From Jiangella asiatica (GTDB lineage Bacteria > Actinomycetota > Actinomycetes > Jiangellales > Jiangellaceae), in the NCBI RefSeq assembly GCF_004349065.1, contig NZ_SMKZ01000035.1, positions 1 to 64,000 on the forward strand: DNA of 64,000 bases, written 5' to 3'. The notes below the pieces were generated by a model that did not search any database, had not been told where the DNA came from, and saw only the letters and a program-made list of their open reading frames with translations. The stretch's first letter is position 1, and the number at the start of each line of letters is the position of its first letter. The position numbers were made by a program, and so were the translations under genes. This document shows positions 14,518-53,607 of the stretch, in pieces.

Positions 14518-15783
14518 TCACGGGAGGGTCGCGCCGAGCGGGCGGGCGCCGTCGAAGCCGGGCAGGATGAGGAACGTGCCGCTCCCGGTCGCGGTCACGT
14601 ACTCGCTGAGCGCGTCGGTCTCGTCGAGCCGGAACTGGGTCTGGGCGAACGTGCGCAGGTCGCGCTGGAAACAGATGAACAGCAGGCCGGCGTCGGCGAC
14701 CCCGCCGGTGGCACCGTCGTCGAAGGCGTAGCCGCGGCGCAGCATCAGGTGGCTGCCGGTGAACGACGGGTGCGCCGCCCGCACATGCGACCGCGCCGGC
14801 GTGACGTACTGCCCGTCCGGGGTCTTCGCCAGCAGGTCCGCCTCGTCCGACGGCCCGCCGCCGGACAGCGGCGAACCGTCGTGCCGGTACCGCCCGATGA
14901 CGGCCTGCTGGTGCTCGAGCGACTCGGCGGCGAACGCGGTCGTGTCCAGCCGGAGCCGCCGAACGACGCAGACGGTACCGCCGGCCAGCGGTCCGTCCGG
15001 GATCCACACATGCTCGGCCAGCTCGTCGTCGCCGTGCGGGACGATGACGCCGTCGTGGAAGCCCAGCGGGTTGCGCGCCACGGTGCCGGTGCCGGGTGCA
15101 CGGAACCCGCGCTGCGACCACCGGATCGATGTGCCGGGGACCGTACCGGTCAGCCAGCGCGCGGCCTGGTGGACGTCGTTCGGGTCGCTGCCGTACACCG
15201 CGATCAGCAGGTCCCCGCCGGTGCGGTCGGCCGGCAGGGCGTCGTCGCCTGCGAACGCGGGCAGCGCCTGCGCGCCGGGCAGCTCCGGGTCGAGTGCCGC
15301 GACCACCCGCGGCCCGAGGCCGACGGTGACCGTGAGGTCGCCCGGCCCGTCGAGCAGCCCGCTGGTTTCAGCTTGATCGTCGCTGGTCAACGACGCGATC
15401 GACCGGCCGAGCGCGGCACAGAGCTCACGGAGCCCGACGCGGTAGGCCTCGTCGGCGGCCCCGGGAGCCGGGACGTCCGCGAGATCGAGCACGACCAGCA
15501 TCCCGTGCGGTTGCGGCGTGCCGGGCCGGGCGATTCCGGCCTGGTGCTCGCCGGCGGCCTCGACGGCCGCGGCTCGGCGTGGGTCGGTCCCGCCGGGTGC
15601 GCTGACCGCCCGCGCGCCGTCACCGTCGTCGCCGTCCTCGCGGGATGCCGCCGACGACGCCAGCACGCCTGCGGTGAGCCCGGCTCCGGCGCCGAGGCCG
15701 GCGGCCATCGCGCCGCGCAGGAGGTCGCGCCGGCGGGTGCCGGCCGAGGTCGGTGGTGTTGGCGGGTGCTCGCTGTCCATCAT
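14518..15783 (-). CDS. Dyp-type heme peroxidase, Tat-exported
   Basis: This is a 421-residue dye-decolorizing peroxidase. A twin-arginine signal (TRRRDLLRGAMAAGLGAG, residues 16-33) points to export by Tat. The Dyp hallmark GxxDG is GFHDG at residues 241-245, the expected heme-ligand His region is PARSHVRAAHP, and a second ferredoxin-like half (YAFDDGATGGVADAGLLFIC) follows. It resembles EfeB-type enzymes, but no EfeU or EfeO gene adjoins. Its ATG overlaps the stop of the lipoprotein gene upstream, so the two are co-translated, which suggests the lipoprotein works with it outside the membrane. Confidence 0.9.
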   Translation of the reverse strand: MMDSEHPPTPPTSAGTRRRDLLRGAMAAGLGAGAGLTAGVLASSAASREDGDDGDGARAVSAPGGTDPRRAAAVEAAGEHQAGIARPGTPQPHGMLVVLDLADVPAPGAADEAYRVGLRELCAALGRSIASLTSDDQAETSGLLDGPGDLTVTVGLGPRVVAALDPELPGAQALPAFAGDDALPADRTGGDLLIAVYGSDPNDVHQAARWLTGTVPGTSIRWSQRGFRAPGTGTVARNPLGFHDGVIVPHGDDELAEHVWIPDGPLAGGTVCVVRRLRLDTTAFAAESLEHQQAVIGRYRHDGSPLSGGGPSDEADLLAKTPDGQYVTPARSHVRAAHPSFTGSHLMLRRGYAFDDGATGGVADAGLLFICFQRDLRTFAQTQFRLDETDALSEYVTATGSGTFLILPGFDGARPLGATLP

Positions 15784-47487: not shown

Positions 47488-48333
47488 TCAGACCCGGCGG
47501 CGCAGCGCCCATACCGACAGCGGCGCGAAGACCGCCGCGATGACCGCGGCCCACAACAGCGACTGCAGCGCGGGGGTCGTCGCGGACGCGACGTGCCACT
47601 GCGTGCCGGTCGTCTCGTCGCCGAGCATCAGCGCGCGGGAGGCGTCGGCGAGGATGGTAACCGGGTTCACCTCGACGAATTTTTGCAGCCAGCCCGGCAT
47701 GGTGTCAGTGGGCGCGAACACGTTGCTGACGAACGTCACCGGGAACAGCGCGGTGAAGCCGAACAGCTGCACCTTCTCCGGATCCTTCGCCAGCACTCCC
47801 ACCAGCACCGACACCCACGAGAACGCGAGTGCGAACACGAGCATCAGCCCCACCGCGGCCAGCAGCGAGGCGACGTCGGTGCCGATGCGGAAGCCGAGGA
47901 TCATGCCGACCGCCAGCAGCAGGAAGATGGACCATGCCTGCTTGACCTGGTCGGCGAGGATGCGCCCGGCCATGGGCGCCCACCGCGCGACCGGCAGCGA
48001 GCGCAGCCTGTCGAAGACGCCCTTGGTGAGGTCGATGTTCAGCCCGGTGCCCACGTACATGGTGATGAACAGCATGTTCATGACGATGATGCCGGGCAGG
48101 GCGAACGTCAGGTACTCGCCGGTGGAGCCGGCGATGGCCCCGCCGAACACGTAGGTGAACAGCAGCACGAACATGATGGGCTGGATGCTGAAGTCGCCCA
48201 GCTCCCACGGGTTGTGCCGGACCTGCACGATGGTGCGCCAGGCCAGCGTCATGGTCTGCCGCAGGCCCTCGGCGAGGCCGACGCGTGGGCTCAGCTCGGC
48301 CGGGGGCGGTGCGGTGGTGGCGGCTGCGGTCAT
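47488..48333 (-). CDS. ABC-2 type exporter permease (DrrB-like)
   Basis: This is a 281-residue membrane protein with six predicted helices. Typical DrrB features are the N-terminal amphipathic segment RTIVQVRHNPWELGDF, the early QPIMFVLLFTYVFGG, VFDRLRSLPVARWAP and a C-terminal TFVSNVFAPTDTMPGWLQKF. It forms the membrane half of an ABC exporter with the ATPase encoded upstream, whose stop it overlaps (ATGA). DrrAB-type pumps export drugs, lipids or polyketides. The cargo is unknown, as no biosynthetic cluster is present. Confidence 0.92.
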   Translation of the reverse strand: MTAAATTAPPPAELSPRVGLAEGLRQTMTLAWRTIVQVRHNPWELGDFSIQPIMFVLLFTYVFGGAIAGSTGEYLTFALPGIIVMNMLFITMYVGTGLNIDLTKGVFDRLRSLPVARWAPMAGRILADQVKQAWSIFLLLAVGMILGFRIGTDVASLLAAVGLMLVFALAFSWVSVLVGVLAKDPEKVQLFGFTALFPVTFVSNVFAPTDTMPGWLQKFVEVNPVTILADASRALMLGDETTGTQWHVASATTPALQSLLWAAVIAAVFAPLSVWALRRRV

Positions 48334-49304
48334 GTCAGGCTCCCCTCGGTCGGCCCTTCGTCCCCGTCTCCGTCCTCGGCCGGGTGGCCGGTGAGGGAGA
48401 GGAAGACCTCGTTCAGGCTGGCGCCCCGCAGCGTCAGCTCCGTGACCAGCACACCGGCGTCGTCGAGCCGGCGCACCACCGCGGGCAGGACGGCGGGGTC
48501 GGTGACCGGTGCGGTGACCCTGGAGCCCTGGAGCTCCGGCGTGGACTTGGTCAGCTCGCCGACGACGGCGGTGACCAGCGGCAGGTGCGACTCGTCCTCG
48601 GGCCGGACCGCGAGCGTCTGCGACCCGGTCTTGGCCTTCAGCTCGTCGGGGGTTCCGGTGGCGATGACCCGGCCGTGGTCGATGACCACGATCTCGTCGG
48701 CCAGTGCGTCGGCCTCCTCGAGATACTGCGTGGTCAGGAGCACGGTGACACCGCCGGACACCAGCCGGCGGATGAGCGACCACAGCTCGCTGCGTGCTCG
48801 CGGGTCCAGCCCTGTGGTGGGCTCGTCGAGGAACAGCATCTGCGGACGGCCCACCAGGCTGGCGGCGAGGTCGAGGCGGCGGCGCATTCCGCCGGAGTAC
48901 GTCTTTGCCGCGCGGTCGGCGGCGTCGGTCAGGTCGAAGTCGGACAGCAGCTCGCGGGCCCGTTGCTTGGCCGCGGGCCGGGGCATGCCCAGCAGCCGGC
49001 CGATGAGCAGCAGGTTCTCGGCACCGGTGAGCATCTCGTCGACGGCGGCGTACTGCCCGGTGAGTCCGACGAGCTGGCGGACCTGGTGCGCCTGGCGCTC
49101 GATGTCGTAGCCGCCGACGCTGGCCGTGCCGGCGTCGGGGCGCAGCAGGGTGGCGAGGACCCGCACGGCCGTGGTCTTGCCGGCGCCGTTCGGCCCGAGC
49201 AGGCCGAGCACCGTGCCGGTGCGGACGCCGAGGTTGACGCCGTCGAGGGCGGTGGTCTCGCCGAAGCGCTTCACCAGGCCGTCGGCCCAGATCGCGTGGT
49301 CCAT
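48330..49304 (-). CDS. ABC exporter ATP-binding protein (DrrA-like)
   Basis: This is a 324-residue ATPase of the DrrA/daunorubicin-resistance group. Walker A is LGLLGPNGAGKTTAVRVL, the signature motif is YSGGMRRRLDLAASL, Walker B is MLFLDEPTTGLDPR, and the C-terminal LRGASLNEVFLSLTGHPAED is the DrrA-type domain that contacts the permease. The ATG ending at 49304 has AAGGAGG six bases upstream. It is translationally coupled to the permease gene. Energy for export of an unknown hydrophobic compound is inferred. Confidence 0.94.
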   Translation of the reverse strand: MDHAIWADGLVKRFGETTALDGVNLGVRTGTVLGLLGPNGAGKTTAVRVLATLLRPDAGTASVGGYDIERQAHQVRQLVGLTGQYAAVDEMLTGAENLLLIGRLLGMPRPAAKQRARELLSDFDLTDAADRAAKTYSGGMRRRLDLAASLVGRPQMLFLDEPTTGLDPRARSELWSLIRRLVSGGVTVLLTTQYLEEADALADEIVVIDHGRVIATGTPDELKAKTGSQTLAVRPEDESHLPLVTAVVGELTKSTPELQGSRVTAPVTDPAVLPAVVRRLDDAGVLVTELTLRGASLNEVFLSLTGHPAEDGDGDEGPTEGSLT

Positions 49305-49416
49305 GGGGAACCTCCTTGTTCCGCCGTGTCGGTCCAGCATGCACCGGGGGTCTGACAGAGTCGAGGTCGTCCGATTCCTCCAAGCCGCCGGCGGGGCGGC
49401 GCGGCAGGATGGGTGC

Positions 49417-50331
49417 ATGGACGACGTACTCGATCGCGCGGCCGCGTTCATGGCCGGCCACGCCCGGTTACTCGACCGGCACCGCTTCGATCTCGCCGTC
49501 GGGCGAGGCGGACCAGAGGCGACGACGGCCACGCTGGCGGCACTCGCCGGCTACCGCAACGACGACGGCGGCTTCGGCTGGGGTCTCGAGCCCGACCTGC
49601 GGTCACCGGAGAGCCAGCCCGCCGGCGCCCTGCACGCGTTCGAGGCGCTGGTCGACGTGGCGCCGGCCACGAGCGTGCTGGCCGGTCCGCTGTGCGACTG
49701 GCTGAACTCGGTGACCCGTCCCGACGGCGGGCTGCCGTTCGCGCTGCCAGTCACCCAGCCGGCCGGCAGCTCCCGCTGGTGGGTCGACGCCGACCACGAC
49801 GAGTCGTCGCTGCAGATCAGCGCGGCCGTCGCTGGCTCGGCCCACCGGGTGGCGCGCCATGACCCCGTCGTCGCCGGGCATCCGTGGCTGACTCGGGTCA
49901 CCGACTTCTGCCTGCGCCGGATCGAGCGGTCGCCGCACCTGCAGGCGATGGAGCTGCAGTTCGCTCTCGGCTTCCTGGTCGAGATGCACGACGCCAGGCC
50001 GGAGGCGTCGGGGCTGCTGCGCGAGCTCGGCCAGCGGGTCCCGGCCGACGGCGGCATCCCGGTCGAGGGCGGCATCGAGGGCGAGGCGATGCACCTGCTC
50101 GACCTGTCGCCGGAGCCGGGCACGCCGTTGCGCGACCTGCTGGCGCCGGACGCCGTCGCGGCCGACCTCGACCGCCTGGCCGGCTTGCAGCAGGAGGATG
50201 GCGGCTGGGTCGTCGACTTCGCGTCGTCGTCGCCGGCCGGCGCGCTGGAGTGGCGCGGCTACCAGACGGTGTGGGCGGTGAGCGTGCTGCTGGCGCACGG
50301 CCGGCTGACCGCGGGCGAGGTCAGCGCCTGA
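49417..50331 (+). CDS. Terpenoid-cyclase/protein-prenyltransferase-fold protein
   Basis: This is a 304-residue protein with an alpha/alpha-toroid signature: repeated aromatic-Gly segments such as RNDDGGFGWGLEPDLR, TRPDGGLPFALPV and QQEDGGWVVDFASSS. This is the squalene-cyclase/prenyltransferase fold, but the DxDD or zinc-site residues of true cyclases and prenyltransferases are not apparent. ATG 49417 is divergent from the DrrA-like gene. The 3' end overlaps the last codons of a methyltransferase relic on the other strand. The substrate is unknown; structural or binding roles are possible. Confidence 0.82.
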   Translation: MDDVLDRAAAFMAGHARLLDRHRFDLAVGRGGPEATTATLAALAGYRNDDGGFGWGLEPDLRSPESQPAGALHAFEALVDVAPATSVLAGPLCDWLNSVTRPDGGLPFALPVTQPAGSSRWWVDADHDESSLQISAAVAGSAHRVARHDPVVAGHPWLTRVTDFCLRRIERSPHLQAMELQFALGFLVEMHDARPEASGLLRELGQRVPADGGIPVEGGIEGEAMHLLDLSPEPGTPLRDLLAPDAVAADLDRLAGLQQEDGGWVVDFASSSPAGALEWRGYQTVWAVSVLLAHGRLTAGEVSA

Positions 50332-50511
50332 TGCAGGTGTAGGCGCCGAACAGCGCGTCACCGTAGGACACGCGACGATCCGGAACCCGGTGCGTTCGAG
50401 CATCGGCTCCAGCAGCCAGCGGAACGTGCTGTGCTCGGTGCGCACGTGCTCGGCGTAATCGTCGCCGACGACTCGCCCGCACCGTGCCGCGGCGGCCGGC
50501 GCGAACTGCAC
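50321..50511 (-). pseudogene. C-terminal relic of a class I SAM methyltransferase
   Basis: One frame reads DDYAEHVRTEHSTFRWLLEP and MLERTGFRIV, which I recognise as the conserved C-terminus of a common actinobacterial class I methyltransferase. A 1-2 base frameshift near 50368 then leads into SYGDALFGAYTCIRR and a TGA at 50321. Everything upstream, roughly 130-170 codons including the SAM-binding motif I, is missing. It overlaps the end of the convergent terpenoid-cyclase-like gene by 11 bases. Confidence 0.6.
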
Positions 50512-50603
50512 GGTGGCATGGAGCCGATCGTGTCATGCGCTCGCGCGGGGTCGCACGGAGATTTCTCGCGATGCTCGGCACGCGGGGATCGCGGTGTGCG
50601 ATC

Positions 50604-51488
50604 ATGCTCCCGATGAACATGAGTCTCACTACCAACATATTCGGTCAAACCGCCACGGTCCCTCCGCCGACTGACGTCCGGGCCACTGCCGGCGAGATTA
50701 TTGTGTCGCTCCGAGGGTTGTACCGGGAACTCGACAACCGCTGCGACCTGCGGCCGGGCCCGGAGGTCGACGACCTCTTCGGCCGGCTGGTCCGGTTGGT
50801 GCTGACCGCACCCGGCGAGGCCGTCCCCGCGGTCCTCAACGACCTCGAGGTCCAGGAGCTCGCGCCGCGGCTGCGCGAGCTGTGCGGCCGTGGCGAGAGC
50901 GAGATGGAGCTGGCCTGGGCCGGGCGCATCGCGTCAGCGCCGGCGCCGCGTCAGGAGCTCGCGCTGTTCCCGTACCTGGACAACTACCGCCAGCTCAGCC
51001 GCATGGAGATCGGGGTGCTGGCCTCCGCCCTGCCGCGGCGGGCCCGCTCGCTGGCGTTCGTCGGCTCCGGGCCGCTGCCGCTGAGCTCGTTGTTCCTGGC
51101 CGGCGACCTCGACCTGAGTGTTGACAACCTCGATCGCGACGGCATCGCGCTCGAAGCCGGCGCCCGGGTCGCGACCGCGCTGGGCTACCCGGACCTCACG
51201 TCGCACCAGGTCGACGTCGCTGCGGCGGACCTGTCCGGCTACGACGTCGTGGTGCTGGCCGCGCTGGTCGGCGACACCGTCGAGGCGAAGCGGCGCATCC
51301 TCGACCGGCTGGGCGCGTCAATGCGGCCGGGGGCGGTCCTGCTCGCTCGCAGTGCGCGCGGACTGCGCACGCTCCTGTACCCACCGGTCGACCTGGCCGC
51401 CCTGGCCGGGTTCGAGCTGCTCACACAGGTCCACCCGGTCAACGACGTGATCAACTCCGCCGTCCTGGCCCGGGCACTCGGGAGATGA
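50604..51488 (+). CDS. Nicotianamine synthase-like protein
   Basis: This is an approximately 294-residue member of the nicotianamine synthase (NAS) family, which joins aminobutyrate units from S-adenosylmethionine. It includes bacterial CntL-type zincophore enzymes. Diagnostic motifs are ALFPYLDNYRQLSRMEIGVL (about 120-139) and the Rossmann motif AFVGSGPLPLSSLFLAGD (about 151-168), followed by VDNLDRDGIALEAGA. The start is uncertain: ATG 50604 or 50613, or ATG 50571 with GGAGA nine bases upstream. A single base separates its stop from an ATP-grasp gene, so the two form an operon. The histidine racemase and opine dehydrogenase partners of staphylopine clusters are not adjacent. Confidence 0.85.
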   Translation: MLPMNMSLTTNIFGQTATVPPPTDVRATAGEIIVSLRGLYRELDNRCDLRPGPEVDDLFGRLVRLVLTAPGEAVPAVLNDLEVQELAPRLRELCGRGESEMELAWAGRIASAPAPRQELALFPYLDNYRQLSRMEIGVLASALPRRARSLAFVGSGPLPLSSLFLAGDLDLSVDNLDRDGIALEAGARVATALGYPDLTSHQVDVAAADLSGYDVVVLAALVGDTVEAKRRILDRLGASMRPGAVLLARSARGLRTLLYPPVDLAALAGFELLTQVHPVNDVINSAVLARALGR

Positions 51489-51489
51489 C

Positions 51490-52758
51490 ATGGCGACCCT
51501 GCTGATGGTCGAGAGCTGGACACAGTCCACGGGGCTGGCGCTGCCGCCGCTGATCCGTGAGCTGGGACATCAATACGTCCTGTTCACGCGGGACCCGGCG
51601 CTGTACCCGCCGGCCACGGCCGGGGCGCACCCCGTCGTCCGCGACGCCGATGAGGTGATCGTCGTCGACACGAACGACCGTGCGTCGATGACGGGCGCCG
51701 TCATCGACCTGGTGTGCCGGCGCCGCATCGATGGCGTCCTCACCACGTGCGACTACTACCTCGAGGCGGTCGCCGGCTTGAGCGGGATGCTCGGCCTGCC
51801 CAGCGCGCCACCGGAGGCGATGCGCCGGGCCACCCGCAAGGACGAGGTGCGGGCGGCGCTGCGCCGCGCCGGGCTGCCCGGCCCGCGGTTCGCCGTCGCC
51901 GGCAGCTGGGACGAGGCCCGCGCGGCGGTCGCCGAGGTCGGGTTCCCGCTGGTGGCCAAGCCGGTGGACCTCAACTCCGGCACGTCGGTGCTGGAGGTCC
52001 ACGACGAGGCCGGCCTCAAGGACGCGTTCTGGGACGTCGCCGGCGTCGAGCGGAACACCCGCGACCAGCCGCTCGCGCGTCTGCTGCTGCTGGAGGAGGT
52101 GCTGACCGGGCCGGAGGTCAGCGTCGAGGCGGTCACCCGCGGCGGTGAGACCACCGTCGTCGGCATCACCGCCAAGGGCGTGACCGGCCCGCCGTCGTTC
52201 GTCGAGACCGGGCACGTGTTCCCGGCGCCGCTGCCGGCCGGCGTGGCCGCCGAGGTGACCGAGCACGTCCGCGCGGCCCTGGCCGCCCTCGGGTACACCC
52301 ACGGTCTCAGCCACACCGAGCTGAAGCTCACGCCGGCCGGGCCGCGCATCGTGGAGATCAACCCCCGGCAGGCCGGCGGCTACATCTTCGACCTCGTGCA
52401 CCTGGTCACCGGCACGCACCCGCTCGAGCTGCTCGTCGACCTCGCCCTGGGCGCGACCCCGCGGGTCGGCGCCCCGCCTGCCGACGCGCCGGGCAGCGCG
52501 GCGGTGTCGTTCGTGCTGTCCCCGGTCGACGCCACGGTCACGGGGGTCGACGGCACCGGCGCTCTGGACGCCGACCCTGCCGTGCGCCGCTGGGAGCTCC
52601 ACGTCCCCGGTGCCGTGCGGCGGGCGACGGACAACAACGCGCGCCTCGGCCACGTCCTCGCGGTCGACGACGGCGACCGTGCTGGCGAACGAGCCGCGGC
52701 CGCCGTCCGCTCGCTGCGGCTGCGCCTGTCCGACGGCGGCGTCGTCGCACCCGCGTGA
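51490..52758 (+). CDS. ATP-grasp domain ligase
   Basis: This is a 422-residue ATP-dependent carboxylate-amine ligase. A pre-ATP-grasp Rossmann domain (about 1-100) precedes the ATP-grasp fold: RKDEVRAALRRAGLPGPRF, the ATP-contact Lys in FPLVAKPVDLNSGTSV, and the Mg-ligand region HTELKLTPAGPRIVEINPRQ with Glu/Asn. GGGAG lies five bases before the ATG, which follows the nicotianamine synthase-like stop by one base. Family members form amide bonds between amino acids, so it probably conjugates the NAS product to an amino or carboxylic acid. The acceptor is unknown. Confidence 0.9.
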   Translation: MATLLMVESWTQSTGLALPPLIRELGHQYVLFTRDPALYPPATAGAHPVVRDADEVIVVDTNDRASMTGAVIDLVCRRRIDGVLTTCDYYLEAVAGLSGMLGLPSAPPEAMRRATRKDEVRAALRRAGLPGPRFAVAGSWDEARAAVAEVGFPLVAKPVDLNSGTSVLEVHDEAGLKDAFWDVAGVERNTRDQPLARLLLLEEVLTGPEVSVEAVTRGGETTVVGITAKGVTGPPSFVETGHVFPAPLPAGVAAEVTEHVRAALAALGYTHGLSHTELKLTPAGPRIVEINPRQAGGYIFDLVHLVTGTHPLELLVDLALGATPRVGAPPADAPGSAAVSFVLSPVDATVTGVDGTGALDADPAVRRWELHVPGAVRRATDNNARLGHVLAVDDGDRAGERAAAAVRSLRLRLSDGGVVAPA

Positions 52759-52764
52759 GGCAGC

Positions 52765-53607
52765 TCAGCGGGCGAACAGGCCGATCGCGTCGTAGGCGAT
52801 CCAGGAGCCGTCGTCCTTGGTCACGGTGAGCAGGTTCTCTCCGGCCACCAGCAGCCCGGCCGGGAGCGGCCGTTCGACGTAGGACGGGCGCAGCGGCGAG
52901 CCGGGCAGGGTGCTGTCGCCGACGGTGGAGCCGCGGGTCGCGCCACCCTCGAACGTCAGCCGCTCGACGGTCGCGCCGTTGACCGTCAGGACCGCAGAGC
53001 CGGGGATGGTGGCGTGGCTGTCGATCAGCCACAGCGCCAGCCAGACCTGACCCGCTGGCGCCGCGGCCAGGTCGAAGCGGAGCCGGAAGACGTGCGGGCG
53101 CCGGCCGGCCCAGGCGTCGGCCGGTCCGGGGTGCAGATAGCTCCAGGCGAGGCCGGCGTTGTCGGTGCCGTGGCGGAAGTCGACTCCGTCGGGGAACGTC
53201 GCCGGGTACTGGGCGTAGCCGCCGGGGGAGAGCGCGAACTCCAGGCCCGTGCCGTCGTACTCGCCGACCACGGCCAGTGCCGCGCCGGTCGCCGTCACCG
53301 ACTCCTGGCTGCTGGCGGTCAGCGGCGCCGAGGCCCGGCTGCGGGCGCCGGCGGCGTCGACGGTGAGGACGCGGTAGGTCCAGTTCGCGCCGCGGCCACC
53401 CAGACCGCGGTGCACGAAACGCGGGTAGACGGTCTTGGTCAGCAGCGTCGACGGGTCCACGGCGACGTCGGCGGCGTCCGGCGCGCCGTACACCGCGTAG
53501 TGGTCGACGACGAAGTCCCACGGCGCCGGGGTCCAGTCCAGGGTGATCCGCCCGAGCTGGCCCTCGGCACGCAGGCCGGTGACGGCGGGGACGTGGCGGC
53601 CGCTCAT
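52765..53607 (-). CDS. FnIII/carbohydrate-binding-like domain protein coupled to PhoD
   Basis: This is a 280-residue protein without a signal peptide. An N-terminal fibronectin III-like part (VTGLRAEGQLGRITLDWTPA, NWTYRVLTVDAAGA) is followed by a domain resembling the C-terminal CBM-like module of rhamnogalacturonan lyases (FRLRFDLAAAPAGQVWLALW, ENLLTVTKDDGSWIAYDAIG). Its ATG overlaps the phoD stop (ATGA). It may be exported bound to the Tat-targeted PhoD, or the two may once have been one protein separated by a frameshift. A catalytic lyase domain is absent. Confidence 0.8.
   Translation of the reverse strand: MSGRHVPAVTGLRAEGQLGRITLDWTPAPWDFVVDHYAVYGAPDAADVAVDPSTLLTKTVYPRFVHRGLGGRGANWTYRVLTVDAAGARSRASAPLTASSQESVTATGAALAVVGEYDGTGLEFALSPGGYAQYPATFPDGVDFRHGTDNAGLAWSYLHPGPADAWAGRRPHVFRLRFDLAAAPAGQVWLALWLIDSHATIPGSAVLTVNGATVERLTFEGGATRGSTVGDSTLPGSPLRPSYVERPLPAGLLVAGENLLTVTKDDGSWIAYDAIGLFAR

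Follow-up and report, generated by a model that had tools for sequence, protein, structure and literature searches.

The gene pair and its start

A 64,000-nucleotide stretch of Jiangella asiatica DNA (contig NZ_SMKZ01000035.1, positions 1 to 64,000; the window in what follows) carries two closely packed genes on its forward strand. The first encodes a nicotianamine synthase (NAS; 50613..51488, +) and the second an ATP-grasp ligase of the L-amino acid ligase type (51490..52758, +). A single base separates them, as the NAS stop codon ends at 51488 and the ligase ATG begins at 51490. A predicted Zur-type operator (TGAACATGAGTCTCA, 15 bp, 50614..50628, + strand) overlaps the NAS start; it is a computed motif match. 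A putative promoter -10-like element (50600..50605, +) lies 7 nt 5' of the start codon at 50613. The sequence-only reading of this DNA had described a NAS gene followed after one base by an ATP-grasp ligase, and both genes stand, with both families scoring above their cut-offs.

The same reading had begun the first gene at 50604. A start at 50613 is likelier, because ATGAACATGAGTCTC at this position is common to the NAS genes of the genus (12/12) and at the 50604 position the nearest relative (L003) carries ATC in place of ATG. In sequence terms, the ATG at 50604 sits within a promoter-like stretch; the pattern TGTG-N2-ATNAT is kept at the -10-like position in most of the 12 genus loci. The transcript of the two-gene operon is probably leaderless, and an Rfam search of 49300-53000 returned no riboswitch or known RNA leader up to E 0.1. 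The genome itself has a single NAS gene.

A nicotianamine synthase with plant-type positions

The first protein matches the NAS family PF03059 at E 3.4e-58 (197.6 bits, cut-off 27.1). The CntL equivalog model gives 18.7 bits, far under its cut-off of 350, and NAS is therefore the better family name: of the earlier assignment to a CntL/NAS family, the NAS half fits better. The predicted structure (pLDDT 88.7, with residues 1-20 below 50; residue numbers count from the 50604 start) superposes on the thermonicotianamine synthase MtNAS (3fpj) with Z 29.1 and 2.4 Å over 255 residues, and on CntL (7c9m) with Z 25.1; the next rows, methyltransferases, fall to 17.5. The match covers residues 26-293, including the helical N-terminal part, and Foldseek also places MtNAS first. 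The NAS structure on which the sequence-only reading had made its proposal depend is thus predicted to be present. Glu102 and Tyr128 correspond in the alignment to Glu81 and Tyr107 of MtNAS and are invariant in 21/21 aligned NAS; in the passage of PMC10491745 on the mechanism, these two MtNAS residues deprotonate the acceptor amine.

Beyond the catalytic pair, the protein resembles plant enzymes at particular positions. For Arabidopsis AtNAS1, the relevant passages of PMC10248798 describe C69, E73 and 206-VGMD-209 as common to plant enzymes and not to microbial NAS-like proteins, and report that activity is abolished by E73Q or by loss of VGMD, though not by C69A. The stretch C94-x3-E98-x3-E102 and an AALVG motif occur in 23/23 prokaryotic NAS (20 from Jiangellaceae, G098 and G402 from outside the family, and Halocatena), where the equivalents of AtNAS1 C69 and E73 are set by spacing from the published numbering and not by aligning AtNAS1 itself. 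In our alignments the Cys and first Glu positions are occupied by Tyr and Gly in MtNAS, which has no four-residue VGxx stretch, and by Thr and Val in CntL, which has no VG. Judged by these positions, the enzyme resembles those of plants and would most likely produce nicotianamine.

An ATP-grasp ligase as the expected amide-forming partner

The second protein matches ATP-grasp_4 (E 5.4e-17, 62.3 bits, cut-off 27) and LAL_C2 (37.5 bits, cut-off 29.4), with ATPgrasp_N, ATP-grasp_3 and GARS_A as further domains above cut-off. Among solved structures, those closest to it in sequence are the L-amino acid ligases BL00235 (E 1.8e-20) and BacD (8.4e-13). The best fold match is 3vot, with Z 37.3 over 381 residues (the next is 32.9); it is nearly full-length and the HTE...E...R residues are conserved. 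E277, E289, N291, R293, K117 and K157, which we take to be catalytic, are invariant in 20/20 rows. The best NCBIfam match, the ATP-grasp half of PRK02186, stays under cut-off, as do weak matches to the dapdiamide synthase and alanine-anticapsin ligase models. Since the closest matches by family and fold are L-amino acid ligases, amide formation is the chemistry expected of this enzyme. The sequence-only reading had likewise predicted an amide in place of reductive chemistry, and these matches support it.

What the ligase acts on depends on what the synthase makes. In a route modelled on CntL and MtNAS, close to what the sequence-only reading proposed, the ligase would supply or extend an amino acid starter and the NAS would load it with one or two aminobutyrates, giving a dipeptide-type metallophore. 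The acceptor of CntL is D-His and that of MtNAS is Glu; these two are the nearest solved relatives of the synthase, and an L-amino acid ligase could well produce a dipeptide acceptor. We nevertheless consider this route somewhat unlikely, as the CntL model scores far under cut-off and the plant-specific positions of this NAS are missing from both MtNAS and CntL. If the NAS is indeed of plant type and not a CntL, the probable substrate of the ligase is nicotianamine or something closely similar, and not an intermediate with a single aminobutyrate.

Conservation of the pair

The Jiangellaceae comprise soil-dwelling and salt-tolerant bacteria. NAS was searched for in 148 genomes, the present one included, and occurs in 21 of them: 20 of the 22 Jiangellaceae and one genome outside the family (G098). 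Within the family, only G013 (81% complete) and G014 (75% complete) lack it. In every NAS-bearing Jiangellaceae genome (20/20) an ATP-grasp gene lies directly 3' of NAS in the same orientation. Across these 20 genomes the pairwise identities of NAS correlate with those of the ligase (r = 0.953), as would be expected from joint descent. Together, constant adjacency and this correlation argue that the pairing is not chance. A contig scan with the NAS alignment found 13 loci (six in Jiangella, one in Haloactinopolyspora, five in Phytoactinopolyspora and one in a metagenome-assembled genome).

The distribution outside the family rests on the 148 relatives plus 396 genomes from the phylum, 66 from the class to which G402 belongs and 149 from the family to which G098 belongs. 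NAS rises above cut-off in 1/66 of that class and 1/149 of that family, and the genes of G098 and G402 have no ligase homologue nearby; G370 and G444 give weak partial matches. The sequence-only reading had called for a neighbourhood survey of NAS genes for adjacent ATP-grasp genes, and the association it anticipated is thus found throughout the NAS-bearing Jiangellaceae, with the NAS genes that lack a ligase neighbour lying outside the family.

A predicted Zur-type switch

Upstream of the 21 NAS loci the DNA holds one conserved element, absent from G098. Fourteen loci, those of the genus and of two genomes close to it, have the form ATGAACATGAGTCTCAC, and the six of Phytoactinopolyspora type have ATGAACATGAATCTCAT, which places a Zur-type site before 20/20 Jiangellaceae NAS genes. 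Both forms, and the common site at znuA, agree at 10/11 specified bases with the Zur motif tGaNNatSatNNtCa from chromatin immunoprecipitation (ChIP-chip) in Streptomyces coelicolor, as given in the motif passage of PMC5472717. We read the element as a predicted zinc-starvation (Zur) switch in front of the operon.

The promoters of znuA genes give the local form of the box. Among the 22 read, TGACAATGGTTGTCA occurs in 18 and variants in three (G018, G013 and G014); the promoter of a second ZnuA-type gene in G012 has no site. The G013 site, on the other strand, reads TGAACATGAATGTCA and equals the Phytoactinopolyspora-type NAS site at 14/15 bases, and the G014 site lies closer to the start codon than the other znuA sites. 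A Fur-family gene adjoins znuA in 19/21 family loci, a count that leaves out the second ZnuA-type gene of G012; it does not do so in the G013 and G014 stretches.

A weight matrix built from four znuA sites and no NAS sites was used to score 63,986 positions of the window on both strands. Its top score falls at 50614, and the rank is the same when G013 is left out of training. At a lower threshold it picks 22 of 417,801 positions, namely the 20 NAS sites and two others. Since it was a pattern modelled on the NAS site that first drew attention to the variant znuA sites, the models were repeated with reduced training sites. With the common znuA site and G018, the NAS site ranks second in the window and three other positions match in 418 kb; with G013 added, it ranks first and one other position matches. 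A degenerate pattern was also designed with the NAS site in view, and the number of its hits therefore proves nothing. The exact S. coelicolor consensus has 0-8 sites per family genome among the matches listed (reversed control, 0-1); the NAS and znuA sites are not among these since they are one base off that consensus.

The coding sequence itself points the same way. Within the first 12 NAS codons, the invariant residues with degenerate codons use the same codon across the 12 genes in 6/6 cases, compared with 38/139 elsewhere, which supports a constraint on the DNA at the NAS start. A peptide-level cause of the conserved MNMSLT start was considered and ruled out, given this codon constancy, the pLDDT below 50 over the first 20 residues and the six loci in which the site lies outside the gene, some 75-155 nt 5' of NAS.

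Several other box candidates were tried and set aside. With up to three mismatches, ATGAAAATGATTTTCAT, a textbook form of the Zur box, has its sole site in this genome within ABC transporter genes (48065-48081) and not at NAS. This miss was at first counted against zinc control, until the znuA promoters of these genomes gave the local box form. Second ZnuA-like genes, tried as extra box carriers, have best sites scoring just 9.7-11.4 (L126-L136). Matches to ATGACC/ATGATC-CATGAGTCTCACAC in three genus genomes are, by eye, start codons of a secreted-protein gene and were taken as chance.

The metallophore role put forward in the sequence-only reading thereby gains a predicted zinc link; that reading had missed both the Zur-type switch and the plant-type NAS positions. 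The same evidence bears on the idea that the pair makes a non-metallophore specialised metabolite merely containing aminobutyrate or azetidine units. ATP-grasp ligases do also make antibiotics (the weak dapdiamide synthase and alanine-anticapsin ligase matches are of this kind), yet a Zur-type site at 20/20 loci, a presence in 20/22 family genomes and the lack of any further biosynthetic gene recurring at all loci make this very improbable.

Proposed pathway

From what was computed, namely the two families, the operon, its conservation and the Zur-type operator, we infer enzyme activities, a plant-type product, an order of steps, a ligation partner and a biological use, as follows. At low zinc, Zur would leave the operator at 50614-50628 and allow one mRNA, probably leaderless, to be made for both genes. 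The NAS would then move 3-amino-3-carboxypropyl groups from S-adenosylmethionine (SAM), with Glu102 and Tyr128 as the catalytic pair, to yield nicotianamine or a close analogue. Next, the ligase would activate a carboxylate as an acyl phosphate and couple the chelator through an amide bond to an amine or amino acid. Finally, the resulting peptide-like zinc chelator may serve zinc uptake or zinc handling within the cell. We give a probability of about 0.6 to the reading that this is a zinc-starvation operon yielding an amide-ligated, nicotianamine-like zinc chelator.

A number of results weigh against this proposal. While VG of the plant VGMD is present in 23/23 sequences, the last two residues are variable. 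Two non-NAS positions outscored NAS sites in the scan with the four-site znuA matrix. The commonest znuA site alone, taken as the model, leaves the NAS site tied second in the window and finds five other positions besides the 20 NAS sites in 418 kb; the S. coelicolor consensus alone puts 5131 ahead of it and 48066 level with it, again a tie for second place. G021 has a NAS site and no znuA-type site in the pattern search. Outside the family, G098 has no Zur-like site before NAS, and in G402 none of the Zur-like sites immediately precedes the NAS gene. Lastly, no exporter or importer constantly adjoins the pair in the 21 stretches surveyed, transporters elsewhere not having been searched for.

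This last point also suits a different use of the same chemistry, in which nicotianamine is modified or trapped by the ligase, kept in the cell as a zinc buffer and redistributes zinc in starvation. The absence of a transporter recurring beside the pair at all loci, the NAS genes without a ligase neighbour in Halocatena, G098 and G402, and the presence in 20/22 family genomes, which suggests a housekeeping use, all fit such a buffer. Zur-controlled metallophores, pseudopaline included, are typically secreted according to the passages on them in PMC6103462, and an ABC-2 exporter pair lies about 1 kb upstream in the window; we regard an intracellular buffer as unlikely.

Relation to known systems

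The closest bacterial parallels to the proposed amide-ligated chelator are the opine zincophores staphylopine, pseudopaline and bacillopaline (CntL plus CntM), which likewise have a NAS-superfamily enzyme acting on SAM, a small core and a link to zinc; the pseudopaline genes are under Zur in the account given in PMC6103462. They differ from the present pair in that the second enzyme here is an ATP-grasp ligase instead of an opine dehydrogenase, no transporter is a constant neighbour, and the NAS fails the CntL model and has plant-type positions. With plant and fungal NAS the enzyme has in common the catalytic Glu and Tyr, C-x3-E-x3-E and the AALVG positions, whereas it is bacterial, shares an operon with a ligase, stands behind a Zur-type operator and follows VG with two variable residues. 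MtNAS of Methanothermobacter is the best solved fold match, yet neither the Cys nor the first Glu nor the VGxx stretch of four residues is present in it.

The L-amino acid ligases BL00235, BacD/YwfE and RizA match the fold of the second enzyme (Z 37.3, 32.7 and 32.5) and have ATP-grasp and LAL_C2 in common with it. In structural alignments it is only 18-22% identical to them, and it is encoded with a NAS. Zur control and zinc chelation in actinobacteria, as proposed here, recall coelibactin and ethylenediamine-disuccinate (EDDS), described in passages of PMC6103462 and PMC5472717 as Zur-controlled actinobacterial zinc chelators; the compounds differ.

No description of a NAS/ATP-grasp pair was found in the open-access literature, though subscription journals may contain one. 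PMC7438024 reports a survey keyed to CntM, a limit that its own text states, and this survey could not have found the pair. The operon is probably a variant form of nicotianamine-type metallophore biosynthesis that uses an amide ligase.

If this is right, amide ligation would be another finishing route for a nicotianamine-type chelator, beside the opine dehydrogenase of bacteria and the mugineic acid route by which plants finish such a chelator. Bacteria would then have nicotianamine synthases with plant-type features, and an ATP-grasp gene behind a Zur box would become a marker for metallophore clusters invisible to dehydrogenase-based surveys. More speculatively, a nicotianamine derivative from plant-associated Jiangellaceae could affect zinc exchange with plants.

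Relatives of the ligase outside the family

The ligase profile matches at E <= 1e-40 in 61 of 393 class genomes, 20 of them Jiangellaceae. Nine of the ten best matches outside the family (L091-L099, seven of them from a single genus with large genomes, probably Streptomyces) share the gene order ATP-grasp, DUF364-like, PALP, MFS and substrate-binding protein. In the two examples scanned, the best model for the PALP protein is the diaminopropionate enzyme SbnA (244 bits, under the cut-off of 350), and the binding protein gives sub-cut-off matches to nickel (NikA) and staphylopine-complex (CntA) binding models. A Zur-like box with at most two mismatches to the 11 specified bases lies upstream of the ligase in 7/9 clusters and ranks 1-3 among the 14,987-15,487 positions of its own stretch; in L091 and L097 the best upstream sites have three and four mismatches. 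No NAS occurs in the stretches of the nine clusters, and the DUF364-like protein, tried as a distant NAS, was rejected (hhalign probability 0.7%; no solved relative).

The five-gene cluster looks like a zinc metallophore cluster. The ligase clade would thus have a zinc connection in both contexts, and this favours a metallophore function for the pair in the window. A broader version of the proposal would join the two. In it, a plant-type NAS makes nicotianamine under zinc starvation and the ligase amidates it to a peptide-type nicotianamine zincophore of an undescribed kind; the same ligase clade, with a diaminopropionate-type synthase, marks a wider and unrecognised class of Zur-controlled actinobacterial metallophores made without nonribosomal peptide synthetases (NRPS). 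We put this forward tentatively, as a combined claim that is rather more doubtful than probable.

The tenth outside match is a PALP-ATP-grasp fusion beside NRPS genes. Fusions of PALP and ATP-grasp/LAL, in either order and beside NRPS genes, were seen at L100:6683-9175 and L101:5991-8228.

Gene neighbourhood and further observations

In a survey of 21 stretches with a crude gene caller, which itself detected NAS in 18 of them and the ligase in 17, no other gene recurs in more than nine. Among the recurring neighbours are a short-chain dehydrogenase, an MmyB-like regulator, an MFS protein and a PhoD phosphatase. The ABC-2 exporter pair (a DrrA-like ATPase and a membrane protein) occupies 47488-49532 on the - strand and is a possible exporter for the product; its ATPase recurs in 8/21 stretches and is hence not a constant partner. 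The sequence-only reading had seen no dehydrogenase, racemase or dedicated transporter adjoining the pair. None was recognised directly beside it, and the ABC-2 pair about 1 kb away qualifies the part on transport. The opine dehydrogenase family PF10100 was found in 0/22 family genomes, yet 0/14 control genomes matched either.

At the six loci L002, L007, L009, L014, L016 and L021, a leader frame of 25-52 codons starts in the Zur box upstream of NAS. Its stop overlaps the NAS start codon in 6/6 while the rest of its sequence is free, which suggests a leader coupled translationally to NAS. L157 (G002:C249, about 69187-69201) repeats the NAS promoter and leader, Zur-like site included, but has no NAS frame directly after them and is likely a duplication remnant. 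In G012, a Zur-like TGATAATGAGTCTCA (L195:2061-2075) precedes a His- and Asp-rich, lipoprotein-like gene without a Pfam match.

Two Halocatena marina plasmid records carry NAS; in the one inspected (L089:6965-7729) it is a solitary archaeal gene with the plant-type positions. The NAS of G402, from another class, also has the plant signature and sits in a zinc island (L090:1574-9266), where zur, znuA and an ABC-3 permease gene lie no more than some 6 kb from it; by eye, the island also holds a methionine aminopeptidase-like frame. Zur-like sites in this island lie at znuA and before an ArsR-type gene.

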